Positions 10,963 through 63,272 of a stretch of 64,000 nt of DNA are shown one piece after another. How positions within the stretch are numbered: position 1 is the first letter of the stretch; every line of letters begins with the position of its first letter. Where the stretch lies: positions 1,860,001 through 1,924,000 of the forward strand of contig NZ_CP025794.1 of NCBI RefSeq assembly GCF_002906655.1. The letters run 5' to 3'. The notes under the pieces were generated by a model. It was not told the DNA's origin. It saw nothing but the letters and a program-made list of their open reading frames with translations, and searched no databases. A program made the translations under genes and the position numbers. Source of the DNA: Vibrio hyugaensis. GTDB taxonomy: Bacteria > Pseudomonadota > Gammaproteobacteria > Enterobacterales > Vibrionaceae.

Positions 10963-10992
10963 AAAAAAGCCGATCTAAGATCGGCTTTCTTC
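10963..10992 (-). terminator. Intrinsic terminator after mdh
   Basis: On the minus strand AAAGCCGATCT pairs with AGATCGGCTTT, followed by a T-run (TTTTTTGATCC). It lies about 30 bases after the mdh stop. Confidence 0.9.
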
Positions 10993-33793: not shown

Positions 33794-33916
33794 TACTCAC
33801 TCGCTCCTTGTTACTCTCAAGCGGGGAGCGTCATTCCTTTCTTTCTGCGTAAGTTCTTATTCCTGCATAGATAATTTGCTCTATACGAACAAAAGAGTGA
33901 ACTTTTCATAAAAATG

Positions 33917-33935
33917 AGTGTTATATTATAACACT
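33917..33935 (+). promoter_or_regulatory. Zur-box-like operator of the zinc-linked ABC operon
   Basis: AGTGTTATATTATAACACT is a perfect 19-bp palindrome centred on T33926. It matches the gamma-proteobacterial Zur consensus core TGTTATANTATAACA in full. A candidate -35 TTTTCA (33903-33908) with a 17-base spacer places the -10 (TTATAA, 33926-33931) inside the palindrome, so bound Zur would block RNA polymerase. The first gene starts 22 bases downstream. Confidence 0.85.
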
Positions 33936-33957
33936 AGGTATCGTTTCGGGCTTTAAG

Positions 33958-34260
33958 ATGCACTGTCGTTGGCAAGCAATTACACATCATTGGCATCGCA
34001 CTGTTGTATTGTTCAGTGTTGCGTTGTTGATCGCTTGGAACTTTGCCACTATTGCTCATCAACTCGACCTCATTCCCGAACACCACAGTGAACATCATTG
34101 CCAAATGTTTGCCGGAGCGCATCAAGGGCTTGCGAAGGCTCAGCCAGAACTCAGTGCGCCCACCTTCTCTAGACTCGCTCACGTAGATGTAGTCGAAATC
34201 ACCTCTCATTTAGAAGACGTCACGTATACCGCGCGTGCACCACCTAATTTTGCGTTCTAA
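33958..34260 (+). CDS. Small His-containing membrane-anchored protein (DUF2607-like), first gene of the zinc-linked operon
   Basis: This 100-residue protein has a short basic, His-rich N-terminus (MHCRWQAITHHWHR). One hydrophobic helix follows (VVLFSVALLIAWNFATIAHQ), then a histidine cluster (HHSEHHCQMF), which would face the periplasm. I associate it, with moderate confidence, with the short Vibrio family DUF2607. The H/C clusters beside the helix could bind Zn2+; this is inference. The Shine-Dalgarno is weak (GGGCTTTAAG). It begins 22 bases after the Zur-type operator and 94 bases before the His-rich periplasmic gene. Confidence 0.7.
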   Translation: MHCRWQAITHHWHRTVVLFSVALLIAWNFATIAHQLDLIPEHHSEHHCQMFAGAHQGLAKAQPELSAPTFSRLAHVDVVEITSHLEDVTYTARAPPNFAF

Positions 34261-34354
34261 AAACCACTACCCATACTAAGAACAAACCTTGTTATTCACT
34301 TTGCTATTTGAGCAAGTAACACATAAAAAATTAAACAAAATTAGGAATAAGAAA

Positions 34355-35101
34355 ATGCCATCTAAACACGCTTTAGCTCTTGTTATCGGACTTTCTCTAT
34401 CAGCTACTGCTAACGCAGAAGAATATCGTCAACATGAAGCGCACGTTCATGGTCATGTCGAATTCAACATTGCTCAAGACGGAAAAGACTTACTAATTGA
34501 AATCACTTCTCCAGGTGCTGACGTGGTTGGTTTTGAGCACGCACCTGAAAATGCAGAGCAAGAGCAAGCCTTAAAACGAGCGGTTGCCGCACTAAAAGAC
34601 ACAAACAAACTGTTTGCAATTAACCAACAAGCGAAGTGTGTGATTGAAGAAGTTCAAGTCGCGCATACGCTTGGCCAAGATTCTCATGAAGGCCACGATC
34701 ATGGTAACCACGAAGGACATGATCATGATAAGCACGACCACGATAGCCATGAGGGTCACGACCATGACAAACATGAGCATGGCGACCACGAGGGTCACGA
34801 CCACGATAAACACGATCATGATGGCCATGAAGGTCACGACCATGACGAACATGCTCATGATGACCACCACGATCACGAAGGTCATGACCACGAAGGACAC
34901 GATCACGAGCACGGCGGTCACGGTGAGTTCACCGTTGAGTACCGTTTCCACTGTGATTCAGTCGCCGATCTAAATAGCATTGATACGACTTGGTTCAAGC
35001 AATTCCCAGCAACAGAATCCATCAGCGTCAACTTATTTACTGACACAACTCAGTCTGCGACAAGCCTAAGCAAAAACAACACTAAGATCGCAATTAAATA
35101 A
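34355..35101 (+). CDS. His-rich periplasmic zinc-binding protein (DUF2796; ZrgA-like)
   Basis: The ATG at 34355 (AGGA upstream) gives 248 residues; the longer frame from 34289 would disrupt the signal peptide (1-21, ending SATANA). The mature N-terminus (EEYRQHEAHVHGHVEFNIAQ) matches DUF2796 proteins. From about residue 110 to 190 is a low-complexity His/Asp/Glu region with seven HEGHD repeats, several in a 13-residue period (HEGHDHDKHDHDS). The end (GEFTVEYRFHCDSVADLNSI) resumes the DUF2796 fold. From memory, a V. cholerae zinc-acquisition system (Zrg) includes such a protein; exact letter assignment is uncertain. The rest of the cluster is an ABC transporter under a Zur-type operator. Confidence 0.85.
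   Translation: MPSKHALALVIGLSLSATANAEEYRQHEAHVHGHVEFNIAQDGKDLLIEITSPGADVVGFEHAPENAEQEQALKRAVAALKDTNKLFAINQQAKCVIEEVQVAHTLGQDSHEGHDHGNHEGHDHDKHDHDSHEGHDHDKHEHGDHEGHDHDKHDHDGHEGHDHDEHAHDDHHDHEGHDHEGHDHEHGGHGEFTVEYRFHCDSVADLNSIDTTWFKQFPATESISVNLFTDTTQSATSLSKNNTKIAIK
34683..34918 (+). repeat. Coding tandem repeat encoding HEGHD/HDHDK units
   Basis: About 235 bp of GGTCACGACCATGA-type repeats inside the preceding gene, with a 39-bp (13-codon) period across four units and looser units at the ends. Such arrays are prone to copy-number change by slippage or recombination. Antisense frames through it are a by-product of its base composition. Confidence 0.85.
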
Positions 35102-35153
35102 ATCACATGGCGTGTGAGTGAGTGCTCACACGCTATTGCCTTGGTAATTTATT

Positions 35154-35882
35154 ATGACTGAAACCACGTCAAACGTTGTTGAGCTGAATAATGCCCAGTT
35201 TGTCTGGCCCGGCTCAGAAAACGCGACCATCAATATTCCGAAATTGCATATCGCTCAAGGCGAGCATGTATTTATCAAAGGACCTAGTGGCTGTGGTAAA
35301 TCCACACTACTCGCGCTGCTAACAGGGATTAACACCTTAACCTCAGGTTCCTTGTCCGTTTTAGAGACTGATATTGCAAGCCTACGAGCAAGTCAAAGAG
35401 ACAAATTTCGTGCCGATCACATTGGCTATATCTTCCAACAATTCAATTTGTTGCCTTATCTGAATGTGATTGAAAACGTCCTGATTCCCTGCCAATTTAG
35501 CTCAATTCGCCGAAATCGAGTGGCACCAAACGCTTCAACGTCATCACTTGAAGAGCAAGCTAAAACGCTTCTGGAGCGTCTACATCTACCCAAGATGTTG
35601 CATGACAAACCCGTGTCAGAATTAAGTATTGGCCAGCAGCAACGCGTTGCCGCGGCACGCGCCTTGATCGGCCAGCCTGAATTAGTCATTGCCGACGAAC
35701 CAACATCCGCACTCGATCATGACAACCGTAAAGCGTTTATAGAGTTGTTGATGGAGCAAGCGAACCTTGCGAACGCAACACTGGTCTTCGTCAGTCATGA
35801 TCCGACGTTAGAATCGCTATTTCATAGAACATTGAATTTGCCGGAAATCAATCAAGCCAAAACCTTGGGAGCGACATCATGA
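35154..35882 (+). CDS. ABC transporter ATP-binding protein, MacB/LolD type (zinc-linked cluster)
   Basis: This 242-residue ATPase has Walker A GPSGCGKSTLLALLTG (about 41-56), Q-loop FQQFNLLPYLNVIENVLIPC, signature LSIGQQQRVAAARAL (about 156-170), Walker B LVIADEPTSALD (about 176-187) and the H-loop in VFVSHDP. The sequence type, with an adjacent FtsX/MacB-like permease, places it in the LolD/MacB (type VII) group, which usually does not import via a substrate channel but works by mechanotransmission. It overlaps the permease by ATGA. Confidence 0.93.
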   Translation: MTETTSNVVELNNAQFVWPGSENATINIPKLHIAQGEHVFIKGPSGCGKSTLLALLTGINTLTSGSLSVLETDIASLRASQRDKFRADHIGYIFQQFNLLPYLNVIENVLIPCQFSSIRRNRVAPNASTSSLEEQAKTLLERLHLPKMLHDKPVSELSIGQQQRVAAARALIGQPELVIADEPTSALDHDNRKAFIELLMEQANLANATLVFVSHDPTLESLFHRTLNLPEINQAKTLGATS

Positions 35883-37138
35883 GTGCCGTAGTAAAGCTCG
35901 CTTGGAAAAGCCTGATGAACCGTAAAGCGACCGCCATTCTCACCATCATGACAGTCGCGATTTCTGTTGTCCTTTTATTGGGTGTTGAACGCATTCGTAC
36001 CCAAGCTAAGGACAGCTTCGCTAACACCATTTCTGGTACCGATTTAATCGTCGGTGGCCGTTCTGGACAAGTCAACTTGCTGCTGTACTCAGTATTCAGA
36101 ATCGGCAATGCCACCAACAACATAGATTGGAAAAGCTACGAAGAGTTTGCTAACCACAGTGCCGTTGATTGGGCAATTCCAATCTCACTCGGAGATTCCC
36201 ACAAAGGGTTCCGCGTAATGGGCACCAACCAGAGCTATTTCGAACACTATAAATACGGAAATAAACAGCCTTTAAAATTGTCCGAAGGCAGGGAGTTCAA
36301 TGGCTTGTTTGAAACGGTACTCGGCTCTGATGTCGCAAAACAGCTTGGATATAAAATCGGTAGCGAAATCATCATTGCACACGGCATCAGTGACGTTGGT
36401 TTTAGTCGGCATGACAACTTACCATTTAAGGTGGTCGGCATTCTTGCTCCTACTGGCACTCCTGTCGATAAAACCGTGCACGTTTCTTTAGAGGCGATCG
36501 AAGCGATTCACGTAGGTTGGGAAAGCGGTGCCCGTTTAGGTCCGACCCCAAGTGCAAATGAGCTAAAATCACGCGACTTCCAGCCTAAACAAATCACGGC
36601 CATGTTGGTTGGGTTAAAATCACGAATTCAAACCTTTGCCCTACAGAGACAGATCAACACCTATCCGAAAGAACCTCTCAGTGCCATCATGCCAGGCGTC
36701 GCTTTGCATGAATTATGGGGCATGATGTCCGTTGCCGAGCAAGCACTCATGGCTGTATCAGGCTTTGTGGTTGTGGCAGGGTTATTAGGCATGCTAAGCA
36801 GCCTATTGACCAGTCTGCAAGAGCGTCGTCGTGAAATGGCGATCCTGCGAGCCATGGGGGCAAGACCAAAACACGTCTTCTCCTTACTGATAAGTGAAGC
36901 CAGCTTATTGACCTTCGCAGGTATTGTGACGGGATTAGTGGGCCTTTATTCCATGCTTGCCCTCTTGCAACCAATAATCCAACAAAGTTATGGTATACAC
37001 CTAACATTAACGGCACTGTCGCCGTATGAATGGATGTTGCTTGGCTTTGTACAATGTGCAGGCATTGTGATTGGCTTCATCCCGGCATTTCGCGCTTACC
37101 GACAATCGCTCAGTGATGGAATGACAATAAGGATTTAG
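35879..37138 (+). CDS. ABC transporter permease, FtsX/MacB type (zinc-linked cluster)
   Basis: This 419-residue inner-membrane protein has the four-helix MacB/LolC topology: helix 1 at about 17-38 (ATAILTIMTVAISVVLLLGV), a large periplasmic domain (about 40-285), then three C-terminal helices (about 288-310, 335-365, 385-405). The cytosolic loop has RRREMAILRAMGARPKHVF, the FtsX-domain signature that couples to the ATPase. It overlaps the ATPase gene by 4 bases and is followed 5 bases later by the DUF3299 gene, so all are in one operon. A role in zinc handling is inferred from context. Confidence 0.92.
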   Translation: MSAVVKLAWKSLMNRKATAILTIMTVAISVVLLLGVERIRTQAKDSFANTISGTDLIVGGRSGQVNLLLYSVFRIGNATNNIDWKSYEEFANHSAVDWAIPISLGDSHKGFRVMGTNQSYFEHYKYGNKQPLKLSEGREFNGLFETVLGSDVAKQLGYKIGSEIIIAHGISDVGFSRHDNLPFKVVGILAPTGTPVDKTVHVSLEAIEAIHVGWESGARLGPTPSANELKSRDFQPKQITAMLVGLKSRIQTFALQRQINTYPKEPLSAIMPGVALHELWGMMSVAEQALMAVSGFVVVAGLLGMLSSLLTSLQERRREMAILRAMGARPKHVFSLLISEASLLTFAGIVTGLVGLYSMLALLQPIIQQSYGIHLTLTALSPYEWMLLGFVQCAGIVIGFIPAFRAYRQSLSDGMTIRI

Positions 37139-37143
37139 TAAAA

Positions 37144-37638
37144 ATGTGGAAAAAAATACTCGCTAGCTGTTTGCTGATGATTTCGTTTACCGCGCCTGTG
37201 ATGGCCAGTGACGAACCATTAAAGCTTGATTGGATAGATCTCGTCCCAGAAGCCGAACGCAAGATGTTCGATAGTATGGGGATGCCTGCCACAGACCACA
37301 GCGGTGGCGCAGCAATGCAATCTAAGGTAGGTAACGTGCGTCCAGAATTGAACGGAAGCACAGTCAAGATTCCTGGCTTTGTCATCCCATTAGAAGGCGA
37401 TGCCAATACCGTCACGGAGTTTTTGTTAGTGCCTTATTTTGGTGCTTGTATTCACGTGCCGCCACCGCCACCAAACCAAATCATCTATGTGAAGTTTCCT
37501 AAGGGAGCGCCAGTACAAGAGTTATGGGATGTGATTTATGTGGTGGGCAAATTGAAGACTGAGACCATCAACCACGAGCTCGCAGAAACCGCGTACGAGA
37601 TCGAAGGCACGAGTATTGAAGCCTACGACGATATGTAG
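37144..37638 (+). CDS. DUF3299 periplasmic protein (zinc-linked cluster)
   Basis: This 164-residue exported protein has the signal peptide MWKKILASCLLMISFTAPVM-A (1-21). The mature part shows the DUF3299 core: KIPGFVIPLEGDANTVTEFL, the motif LLVPYFGACIHVPPPPPNQI with a Cys-X-His pair, then VKFPKGAPVQELWDVIYVVG. The FGACIHVPPPP block is highly conserved in the family and could bind a metal; that is inference. It is the last of five genes under the Zur-type operator, before an intrinsic terminator. Confidence 0.88.
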   Translation: MWKKILASCLLMISFTAPVMASDEPLKLDWIDLVPEAERKMFDSMGMPATDHSGGAAMQSKVGNVRPELNGSTVKIPGFVIPLEGDANTVTEFLLVPYFGACIHVPPPPPNQIIYVKFPKGAPVQELWDVIYVVGKLKTETINHELAETAYEIEGTSIEAYDDM

Positions 37639-37655
37639 TTTGTTTTGATTTCACA

Positions 37656-37684
37656 CCAAGGCGTCAATTTGGCGCCTTTTTTAT
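37656..37684 (+). terminator. Intrinsic terminator of the zinc-linked operon
   Basis: AAGGCG pairs with CGCCTT around TCAATTTGG, followed by TTTTTTATG. It ends the operon 20 bases after the DUF3299 stop. Confidence 0.85.
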
Positions 37685-62573: not shown

Positions 62574-63272
62574 TTACTTACGGCCTTTACGCTGCTTCTT
62601 AGGCTTATCGCCTTTAGGCTCTACAGCGTTAGCTGCTGGCATACCACCTAGAATCTCACCTTTGAAGATCCAAGTTTTAATGCCGATCACACCGTATTGA
62701 GTGTGAGCCGAAGAAGTTGCGTAATCAATGTCTGCACGTAGAGTGTGTAGAGGCACACGACCTTCACGGTACCACTCAGAACGTGCGATTTCAGCGCCGC
62801 CTAGACGACCGCTTACTTCCACTTTGATGCCTTTAGCACCTAGACGCATTGCGTTTTGTACCGCGCGCTTCATAGCACGACGGAACATAACACGACGCTC
62901 TAGTTGAGACGCGATGCTATCGCCAACAAGTTGTGCATCAAGTTCAGGTTTACGTACTTCAGCGATGTTAATTTGCGCTGGTACACCTGCAATTTTTGCT
63001 ACAGCTGTGCGTAGTTTCTCAACGTCTTCACCTTTCTTACCGATTACAACGCCTGGACGAGCAGTGTGAATAGTCACACGGATGCTCTTAGCAGGACGCT
63101 CGATAACGATGCGTGAAAGAGATGCTTTTTGTAGTTCCTTAGTAAGGAACTGACGTACCTTGAAGTCGCCGTCTAGGTTGTCAGCGAAATCTTTGGTGTT
63201 AGCAAACCATGTAGCATTCCAAGGCTTAACGATGCCAAGACGAATACCATTAGGATGTACTTTTTGACCCAT
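62574..63272 (-). CDS. rpsC: 30S ribosomal protein S3
   Basis: S3 lies at the mRNA entry site and contributes helicase activity. The 232-residue protein begins [20 protein letters not shown]. The KH domain has [20 protein letters not shown], and the C-terminus is basic ([13 protein letters not shown]). Confidence 0.98.

Follow-up and report, generated by a model that had tools for sequence, protein, structure and literature searches.

The Zrg operon of Vibrio hyugaensis and a putative zinc site in its MacB-like permease

How could an ATP-binding cassette (ABC) transporter resembling MacB serve zinc acquisition? The question is raised by a cluster of five genes in Vibrio hyugaensis, found in a 64,000-nucleotide stretch of contig NZ_CP025794.1 (positions 1,860,001 to 1,924,000, hereafter the window) of a 5.6-Mb genome with two contigs. 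The cluster is zrgDACBE, the published zinc-acquisition operon of V. cholerae and V. parahaemolyticus, and of Pseudomonas aeruginosa as PA4063-66. We computed its operator, gene identities, fold, conserved residues, gene linkages, and sister clades, and found an exchange between the zinc-binding protein ZrgA and an insert in the permease. Zrg may well be an ATP-driven machine that hands zinc over within the periplasm, not a channel.

The operon, its control by Zur, its MacB-like fold, and the mechanistic puzzle are already in print (PMC9820375, PMC11481552). According to the passages of this literature that were searched, the V. parahaemolyticus zrg operon is Zur-repressed and is upregulated 76- to 206-fold in low zinc (PMC9817125), and a V. 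cholerae znuA zrgA double mutant suffers an ~100-fold loss of survival in zinc-poor medium, in which the znuA single mutant grows (PMC9820375). The likeness of ZrgB to MacB, and its unlikeness to metal importers, is stated there (PMC9820375) as well as for PA4064/65 (PMC11481552). The P. aeruginosa genes were first discussed in terms of a chaperone of the periplasm, encoded next to a putative ABC transporter (PMC8561739), and PA4064/PA4065 were later proposed to form a MacB-type exporter of pyochelin-cobalt (PMC11481552). The mechanism is disputed in these papers, with a zinc importer and a pyochelin-cobalt exporter as the choices. No mention of the ZrgB histidines was found in the published passages searched.

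Conserved residues of the ZrgB periplasmic domain

ZrgB is an FtsX permease whose large periplasmic domain sits between membrane helices one and two. At an E value of 0.001 its Pfam matches are FtsX and MacB_PCD only, without the ABC-3 family (PF00950) that characterizes ZnuABC-type (cluster A-I) systems, and the window's protein is identical to ZrgB of Vibrio jasicida. A ZrgB profile run on 397 genomes of the phylum recovered Zrg permeases over their full length at about 370 bits or more and, across a score gap, a lower-scoring set, with about 82 to 240 bits, in 27 genomes. All 27 of the latter were fetched (18 alongside 2 from the low end of Zrg, and 9 others), and 12 new permeases were added from 25 matches in genomes of the class. 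The resulting alignment comprises 119 permeases, namely, 84 of Zrg, 23 of clade 2, and 12 of clade 3.

Only six charged or His positions are kept in at least 95% of the periplasmic domains: D55, D106, H168, H178, D197, and H211. Four further Zrg-like permeases that bear an insert retain all six, so that the three His are kept together in 122 of 123 permeases (118/119 plus these four); in an alignment of 78 Zrg permeases the three are invariant. The window's genome encodes seven other proteins of the MacB_PCD/FtsX type; none of them has H168 or H178, and one has H211. Outside the periplasmic domain, the positions kept at the same level, besides Gly, Pro, and aliphatic residues, are R316, R324, and E340. 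The membrane helices contain no potential metal ligand that is common to all three clades of the 119 permeases; the only helix candidate, E340, is Glu in 84/84 Zrg, 23/23 clade 2, and 8/12 clade 3 proteins, and Glu or Gln in the outgroup. This pattern of conservation suggests that H168, H178, and H211, together with D106 and D197, form one putative zinc site.

Sister clades and the histidine-rich collector

In a tree of 68 permease rows, obtained by a quick search and with long outgroup branches, Zrg, clade 2, and clade 3 stand apart with Shimodaira-Hasegawa-like approximate likelihood ratio test (SH-aLRT) supports of 97, 99, and 100. Frequent neighbors in clade 2 are zur-like, COG0523, MerC, DUF1826, ZnuA, and TonB-receptor genes, and the secreted small protein of these loci exceeds the DUF3299 cut-off in four of four cases tested. 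In the clade 3 loci (L228, L229, L230, L231, and L235-L242), gene order is the same in 12/12: alkaline phosphatase, oligonucleotide/oligosaccharide-binding (OB)-like protein with CPFC, ATPase, and permease, most with a His-rich loop. The phosphatase belongs to PF00245 in all four proteins searched against Pfam, and a profile built on these four gives 904 to 1066 bits for the remaining eight; L230 is the locus of Pectobacterium atrosepticum. Being a secreted zinc enzyme, alkaline phosphatase has no need of cytoplasmic zinc. The small proteins listed for clades 2 and 3 have a C-x-x-C/H motif, and C-x-H, as part of C-x-H-x-P, is present in 76/76 ZrgE rows. Among the clade 2 loci of the 27 lower-scoring genomes, L214 is the only one that has room for an OB-like gene and lacks it; L227 also lacks it, in a stretch that ends at its contig.

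No ZrgA match was found in the stretches of the clade 2 and clade 3 loci, and it is there that His-rich inserts follow H211. The number of His after this residue is 0 to 31 in clade 2 (six or more in 16/23) and 1 to 20 in clade 3 (six or more in 9/12). The Zrg rows counted, 18 of 84, have 0 to 4. Six Zrg-like permease matches in the window's order are broken near residue 215-225, and no ZrgA match lies within 11-13 kb of any of these loci; a search over the whole genome, made for G302 alone among the six, was likewise without a ZrgA match. Four of them (L268, L271, L272, and L273) are single-frame permeases that contain an insert, keep the three His, and have 6, 10, 34, and 44 His after H211, and the remaining two (L269 and L270), with the permease in two frames, were left as pieces. 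Where ZrgA is absent, the permease thus usually bears a His-rich collector of its own. Since the collector is either a separate ZrgA or an insert next to H211, its position suggests that ZrgA works near H211 of ZrgB.

The operon, its Zur box, and related loci

The five tightly packed genes of the original prediction, and their identity as Zrg, are borne out by their coordinates and by Pfam and NCBIfam names (Table 1). ZrgA scores 294.3 bits against the NCBIfam equivalog NF047873, "zinc uptake protein ZrgA" (cut-off 185), and its solved relatives are 8ezw and 7ahw. The start of zrgB overlaps the end of zrgC by 4 bases, and a one-sequence ZrgD profile matches in 10 of 80 named loci, in Vibrio only. 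Compared by gene families rather than by alignment, the cluster shows no difference from ZrgABCDE of V. cholerae and V. parahaemolyticus, with five gene families alike, a Zur box, and the ZrgA equivalog match. The P. aeruginosa operon shares relatives of ZrgA, the ATPase, the permease, and ZrgE under Zur control (PMC11481552, PMC8561739) and, as published, differs in lacking zrgD and in the pyochelin-cobalt export proposed for it (PMC11481552); this comparison gave 7ahw and 4hsp as solved relatives.

Table 1. Positions of the zrg features in the window
Feature	Position	Strand	Remarks
Terminator-like stem-loop after ytfJ, upstream limit of unit	33802..33830	+	Pattern match only
Zur-type operator, perfect 19-bp palindrome	33917..33935	Not assigned	AGTGTTATA-T-TATAACACT
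zrgD	33958..34260	+	DUF2607 above cut-off; 12 His in 100 amino acids; one hydrophobic segment by eye
zrgA, secreted zinc-binding protein	34355..35101	+	NF047873, PF10986
His-rich repeat region of ZrgA, residues 109-189	34679..34921	+	32 His in 81 residues
zrgC, ABC ATPase of LolD/DevA/MacB type	35154..35882	+	Pfam/NCBIfam
zrgB, FtsX-type (type VII) permease with MacB-like periplasmic domain	35879..37138	+	
ZrgB D55	36041..36043	+	Kept in 118/119
ZrgB D106	36194..36196	+	Kept in 119/119
ZrgB H168	36380..36382	+	Kept in 118/119, plus 4/4 more
ZrgB H178	36410..36412	+	Kept in 118/119, plus 4/4 more
ZrgB D197	36467..36469	+	Kept in 119/119
ZrgB H211	36509..36511	+	Kept in 118/119, plus 4/4 more; precedes His-rich insert of relatives without ZrgA
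zrgE, secreted OB-fold protein	37144..37638	+	DUF3299 above cut-off
ZrgE C102-I-H104 motif	37447..37455	+	
Terminator-like stem and T-run, 3' of zrgE	37658..37678	+	Pattern match only
Further perfect 9-1-9 palindromes	10968-10986, 63133-63151		AGCCGATCTAAGATCGGCT and AGTTCCTTAGTAAGGAACT

The palindrome ends 22 bp before the first of the five genes. Its AT-rich core could, by eye, overlap a -10 box; on the + strand, a simple scan for promoters gave no site of the sigma-70 type. Symmetry alone is weak evidence for an operator, because the 64-kb window contains three perfect 9-1-9 palindromes, the zrg operator included. The Zur core seen in it from the outset holds up in the genome: the core TGTTATANTATAACA occurs at two places in 5.6 Mb and its reversed control at none. 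The genome scan proposed at the same time, a search with the 19-mer allowing up to three mismatches, gave eight places versus one in the control. By position and Pfam, six of the eight boxes belong to znuA/znuCB, a DUF1826 gene, zrg, GTP cyclohydrolase II, ribosomal L31, and an M23 peptidase, the last of which recalls a cell wall hydrolase that is reportedly Zur-dependent. The Zur regulon of V. parahaemolyticus, as given in Table 1 of the source, includes znu, ribA, rpmE2, and zrg (PMC9817125). The other two of the eight, both weak Zur-type boxes, lie just before a gene for an unassigned ABC ATPase (L082, G000:C1:976776) and within a dcuC gene (L084, G000:C2:930724).

The box was also sought upstream of the operon in relatives, in 72 of 80 named loci selected by ZrgB (three were dropped at contig ends and five had no zrgA match). 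It was found with up to two mismatches in 44/72 and with up to three in 56/72, many of these loci being close relatives of one another; 0.1 and 2.3, respectively, were expected from shuffles, and a downstream control gave 0/64. Among the 16 loci in which even three mismatches gave no box are all four from Aeromonas (L153, L154, L159, and L160), all three from Hyphomicrobium (L150, L157, and L172), and one from Vibrio (L125). All 80 loci have zrgE, 75 have zrgA, and 76 have zrgC; of the five without zrgA, two lie at contig ends. Three loci of purple sulfur metagenome-assembled genomes (L140, L143, and L166; Thiocapsa and Thiohalocapsa) have zrgB and zrgE but neither zrgA nor a neighboring zrgC. 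Two zrgB matches in relatives of the window's order have one internal stop codon (G670:C19:21465-22697 and G643:C33:80723-81961).

A second census started from ZrgA: among 370 genomes of the class, 42 have a match above the cut-off of its family. The 41 genomes besides the window's gave 42 stretches with a ZrgA-family match, of which 27 have zrgB, and all 27 also have zrgC and zrgE; among the 15 without zrgB, at least two (L057 and L075) ended before reaching it. The presence of ZrgA in the 27 loci is not itself a result, because they were selected by it. Their neighbors include zur-like (Fur-family) genes in 13, MerC-family genes in 8 (one weak), COG0523 in 5, and DUF1826 in 4, and the commonest Pfam family among the 139 other neighbor proteins is MerC, with six members. 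With these neighbors and the Zur boxes of the relatives, Zrg homologues do not lie mainly in contexts unrelated to metals, which is the outcome that the original prediction had named as speaking against it.

Small membrane proteins of the MerC family occur in zinc-starvation islands with zrg at L037, L041, L051, L058, L059, L065, and L066, and L063 has a weak match beside zrg. At L068, L070, and L071, a ZrgA-family protein without zrgBC is encoded between genes that by eye are exonuclease III-like and HupE/UreJ-like. The ZrgA-family gene of L044 adjoins a TonB-dependent receptor gene in a stretch without zrgBC, and the same genome has zrgBC and zrgE at another locus (L260).

A proposed zinc hand-over and its rivals

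Periplasmic hand-over would proceed as follows. Zur with zinc on the palindrome would keep the operon off, and zinc starvation would lead to its expression. ZrgA would gather zinc in the periplasm (others have measured zinc binding by a relative) and dock on the periplasmic domain of ZrgB, where zinc may pass to H168, H178, and H211 with D106 and D197. As in other type VII ABC proteins, binding and hydrolysis of ATP, here by ZrgC, would act through the membrane helices to move this domain, making the site release its zinc and forcing the metal onto an acceptor. The likeliest candidate for the first acceptor is ZrgE, given its fixed C-x-H motif. The inner membrane would be crossed via ZnuB, ZIP, or, in some genomes, a MerC-family protein, and not via ZrgB. 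Zinc binding by these residues, the docking of ZrgA, the direction of transfer, and the absence of zinc flow through ZrgB are what we infer from sequence. ATP-driven periplasmic transfer is the simplest reading because the candidate ligands are on the outer side only, because the collector is either ZrgA or an insert, and because a sister operon encodes a zinc enzyme. The suggestion, made when the cluster was first described, that zinc might be released from a periplasmic ligand instead of being transported gains support, as an interpretation, from the conserved His, the His-rich inserts, and the sister clades.

Several observations weigh against the hand-over. In L214 of clade 2, Arg and Gln replace H168 and H178, and the third His is ambiguous, being His in one alignment and Gln in another. 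L251 keeps the three His, yet its 4.3-kb stretch has no OB-like gene, and in clade 2 the insert contains fewer than six His in 7 of 23 permeases, with none in L216, L217, and L221. The meeting of the three His at one point in space is predicted from their conservation; residues 172-174 of ZrgB fall below 50 in the predicted local distance difference test (pLDDT), and H178 lies in a low-confidence loop. Individual knock-outs of zrgD or zrgE had no effect, as PMC9820375 reports in citing earlier work. The window's genome has an ABC-3 protein, but searches for ZIP and MerC gave no match there. Zrg evidently supplies zinc without ZnuA, because the V. cholerae double mutant fails where the znuA mutant grows, and with these genetics and no ZIP or MerC in the window's genome, direct import is the simplest explanation for Vibrio, unless a second Znu-type permease contributes.

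Direct import is the reading of the Vibrio papers: ZrgBC would be a true zinc importer with ZrgA as its binding protein, and zinc would pass through a ZrgB dimer. Besides the need of the znuA mutant for zrgA (PMC9820375), the zinc regulation of the operon (PMC9817125) agrees with it, and the three His could form the entry site of a path. We consider it unlikely in view of the type VII fold of ZrgB, membrane helices with no metal ligand common to the three clades, and the secreted zinc enzyme that adjoins clade 3; moreover, deletion of PA4065 in a znuA zrmB background left cell zinc no lower still (PMC11481552). Other carriers were sought in 30 Zrg genomes, namely, the window's, the 27 of the ZrgA census, and G008 and G047, in which the ZrgA stretches ended early (zrgB was later seen for G047, not for G008). 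An ABC-3 permease is present in 24 of the 30, three of them (G294, G108, and G316) with weak matches only, and the window's genome has an ABC-3 match at C2:2056121 that is possibly a second Znu-type permease. ZIP exceeds its cut-off in 9 and MerC in 14, and each of the six genomes without ABC-3 has a ZIP or MerC-family protein. Zrg is therefore never the sole candidate zinc carrier in these genomes, as none of the 30 lacks ABC-3, ZIP, and MerC together; in G126, G040, and G167, which have no ABC-3 and no ZIP match, the carrier may be MerC. In the V. cholerae znuA mutant fed by Zrg, either another carrier finishes the task or ZrgB imports.

Export of a metallophore (pyochelin-cobalt) by a MacB-type ZrgBC, as proposed for PA4064/PA4065, fits the MacB-like domain of ZrgB, and we regard it as highly improbable. 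Thiazolinyl imide reductase, an enzyme of pyochelin/yersiniabactin synthesis, exceeds its cut-off in none of the 30 Zrg genomes, with 10 weak matches below it, and in 1 of 14 control genomes, of which three have a match at any level; pyochelin export is therefore unlikely as a common function of Zrg, though it may play a local role in P. aeruginosa. The 139 neighbors represent 205 Pfam families, the 25 commonest of which include no HlyD/MacA adaptor, and a pump for an organic molecule would leave the three His and the alkaline phosphatase clade unexplained. A zinc sensor or protein-remodeling machine comparable to FtsEX and LolCDE, in which zinc at the three His gates action on an envelope protein (for example, the folding, release, or protection of a zinc enzyme), would give these residues a role; it does not alone account for the supply of zinc by Zrg to the cytoplasm when znuA is mutated, and we think it quite improbable.

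Among known systems, MacAB-TolC shares the type VII fold and the MacB-like periplasmic domain, and differs from Zrg in that the Zrg ATPase is a separate chain and gene, ZrgB has three conserved His, and no adaptor gene was noticed beside zrg among those commonest neighbor families. MacB proper was rejected (27.6 versus 966 bits for the equivalog, ATPase unfused), as was LolCDE (36 versus 362 bits for the lolCE equivalog), from which Zrg also differs in its single permease gene and its zinc linkage. NosDFY-NosL is an ABC complex that helps to load copper into a periplasmic enzyme; its resemblance to clade 3 is a functional analogy only, since Nos handles copper and consists of other protein families.

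For the family as a whole, we tentatively favor the periplasmic hand-over in a general form. ZrgB and its relatives would be type VII permeases with a periplasmic three-His zinc site, an ATPase, and, at nearly every locus seen, a small secreted OB-like protein with a C-x-H or C-x-x-C/H motif. ATP would force zinc from the His-rich collector, either ZrgA or the insert of a permease that lacks ZrgA, onto periplasmic acceptors without membrane transport; under this same tentative proposal, the acceptor would be an importer when zinc is scarce, or else a zinc enzyme that is secreted, such as alkaline phosphatase. As far as our literature searches go, the three-His family and the alkaline phosphatase clade are undescribed. 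The conserved residues, the movable collector, and the two sister operon types turn the dispute between importer and exporter into simple tests. If hand-over by mechanotransmission is true, cells use ATP to transfer a metal from one extracytoplasmic protein to another, powered loading of a secreted zinc enzyme would have an example in the alkaline phosphatase operons, and Zrg would be an energized zinc metallochaperone system of the periplasm.

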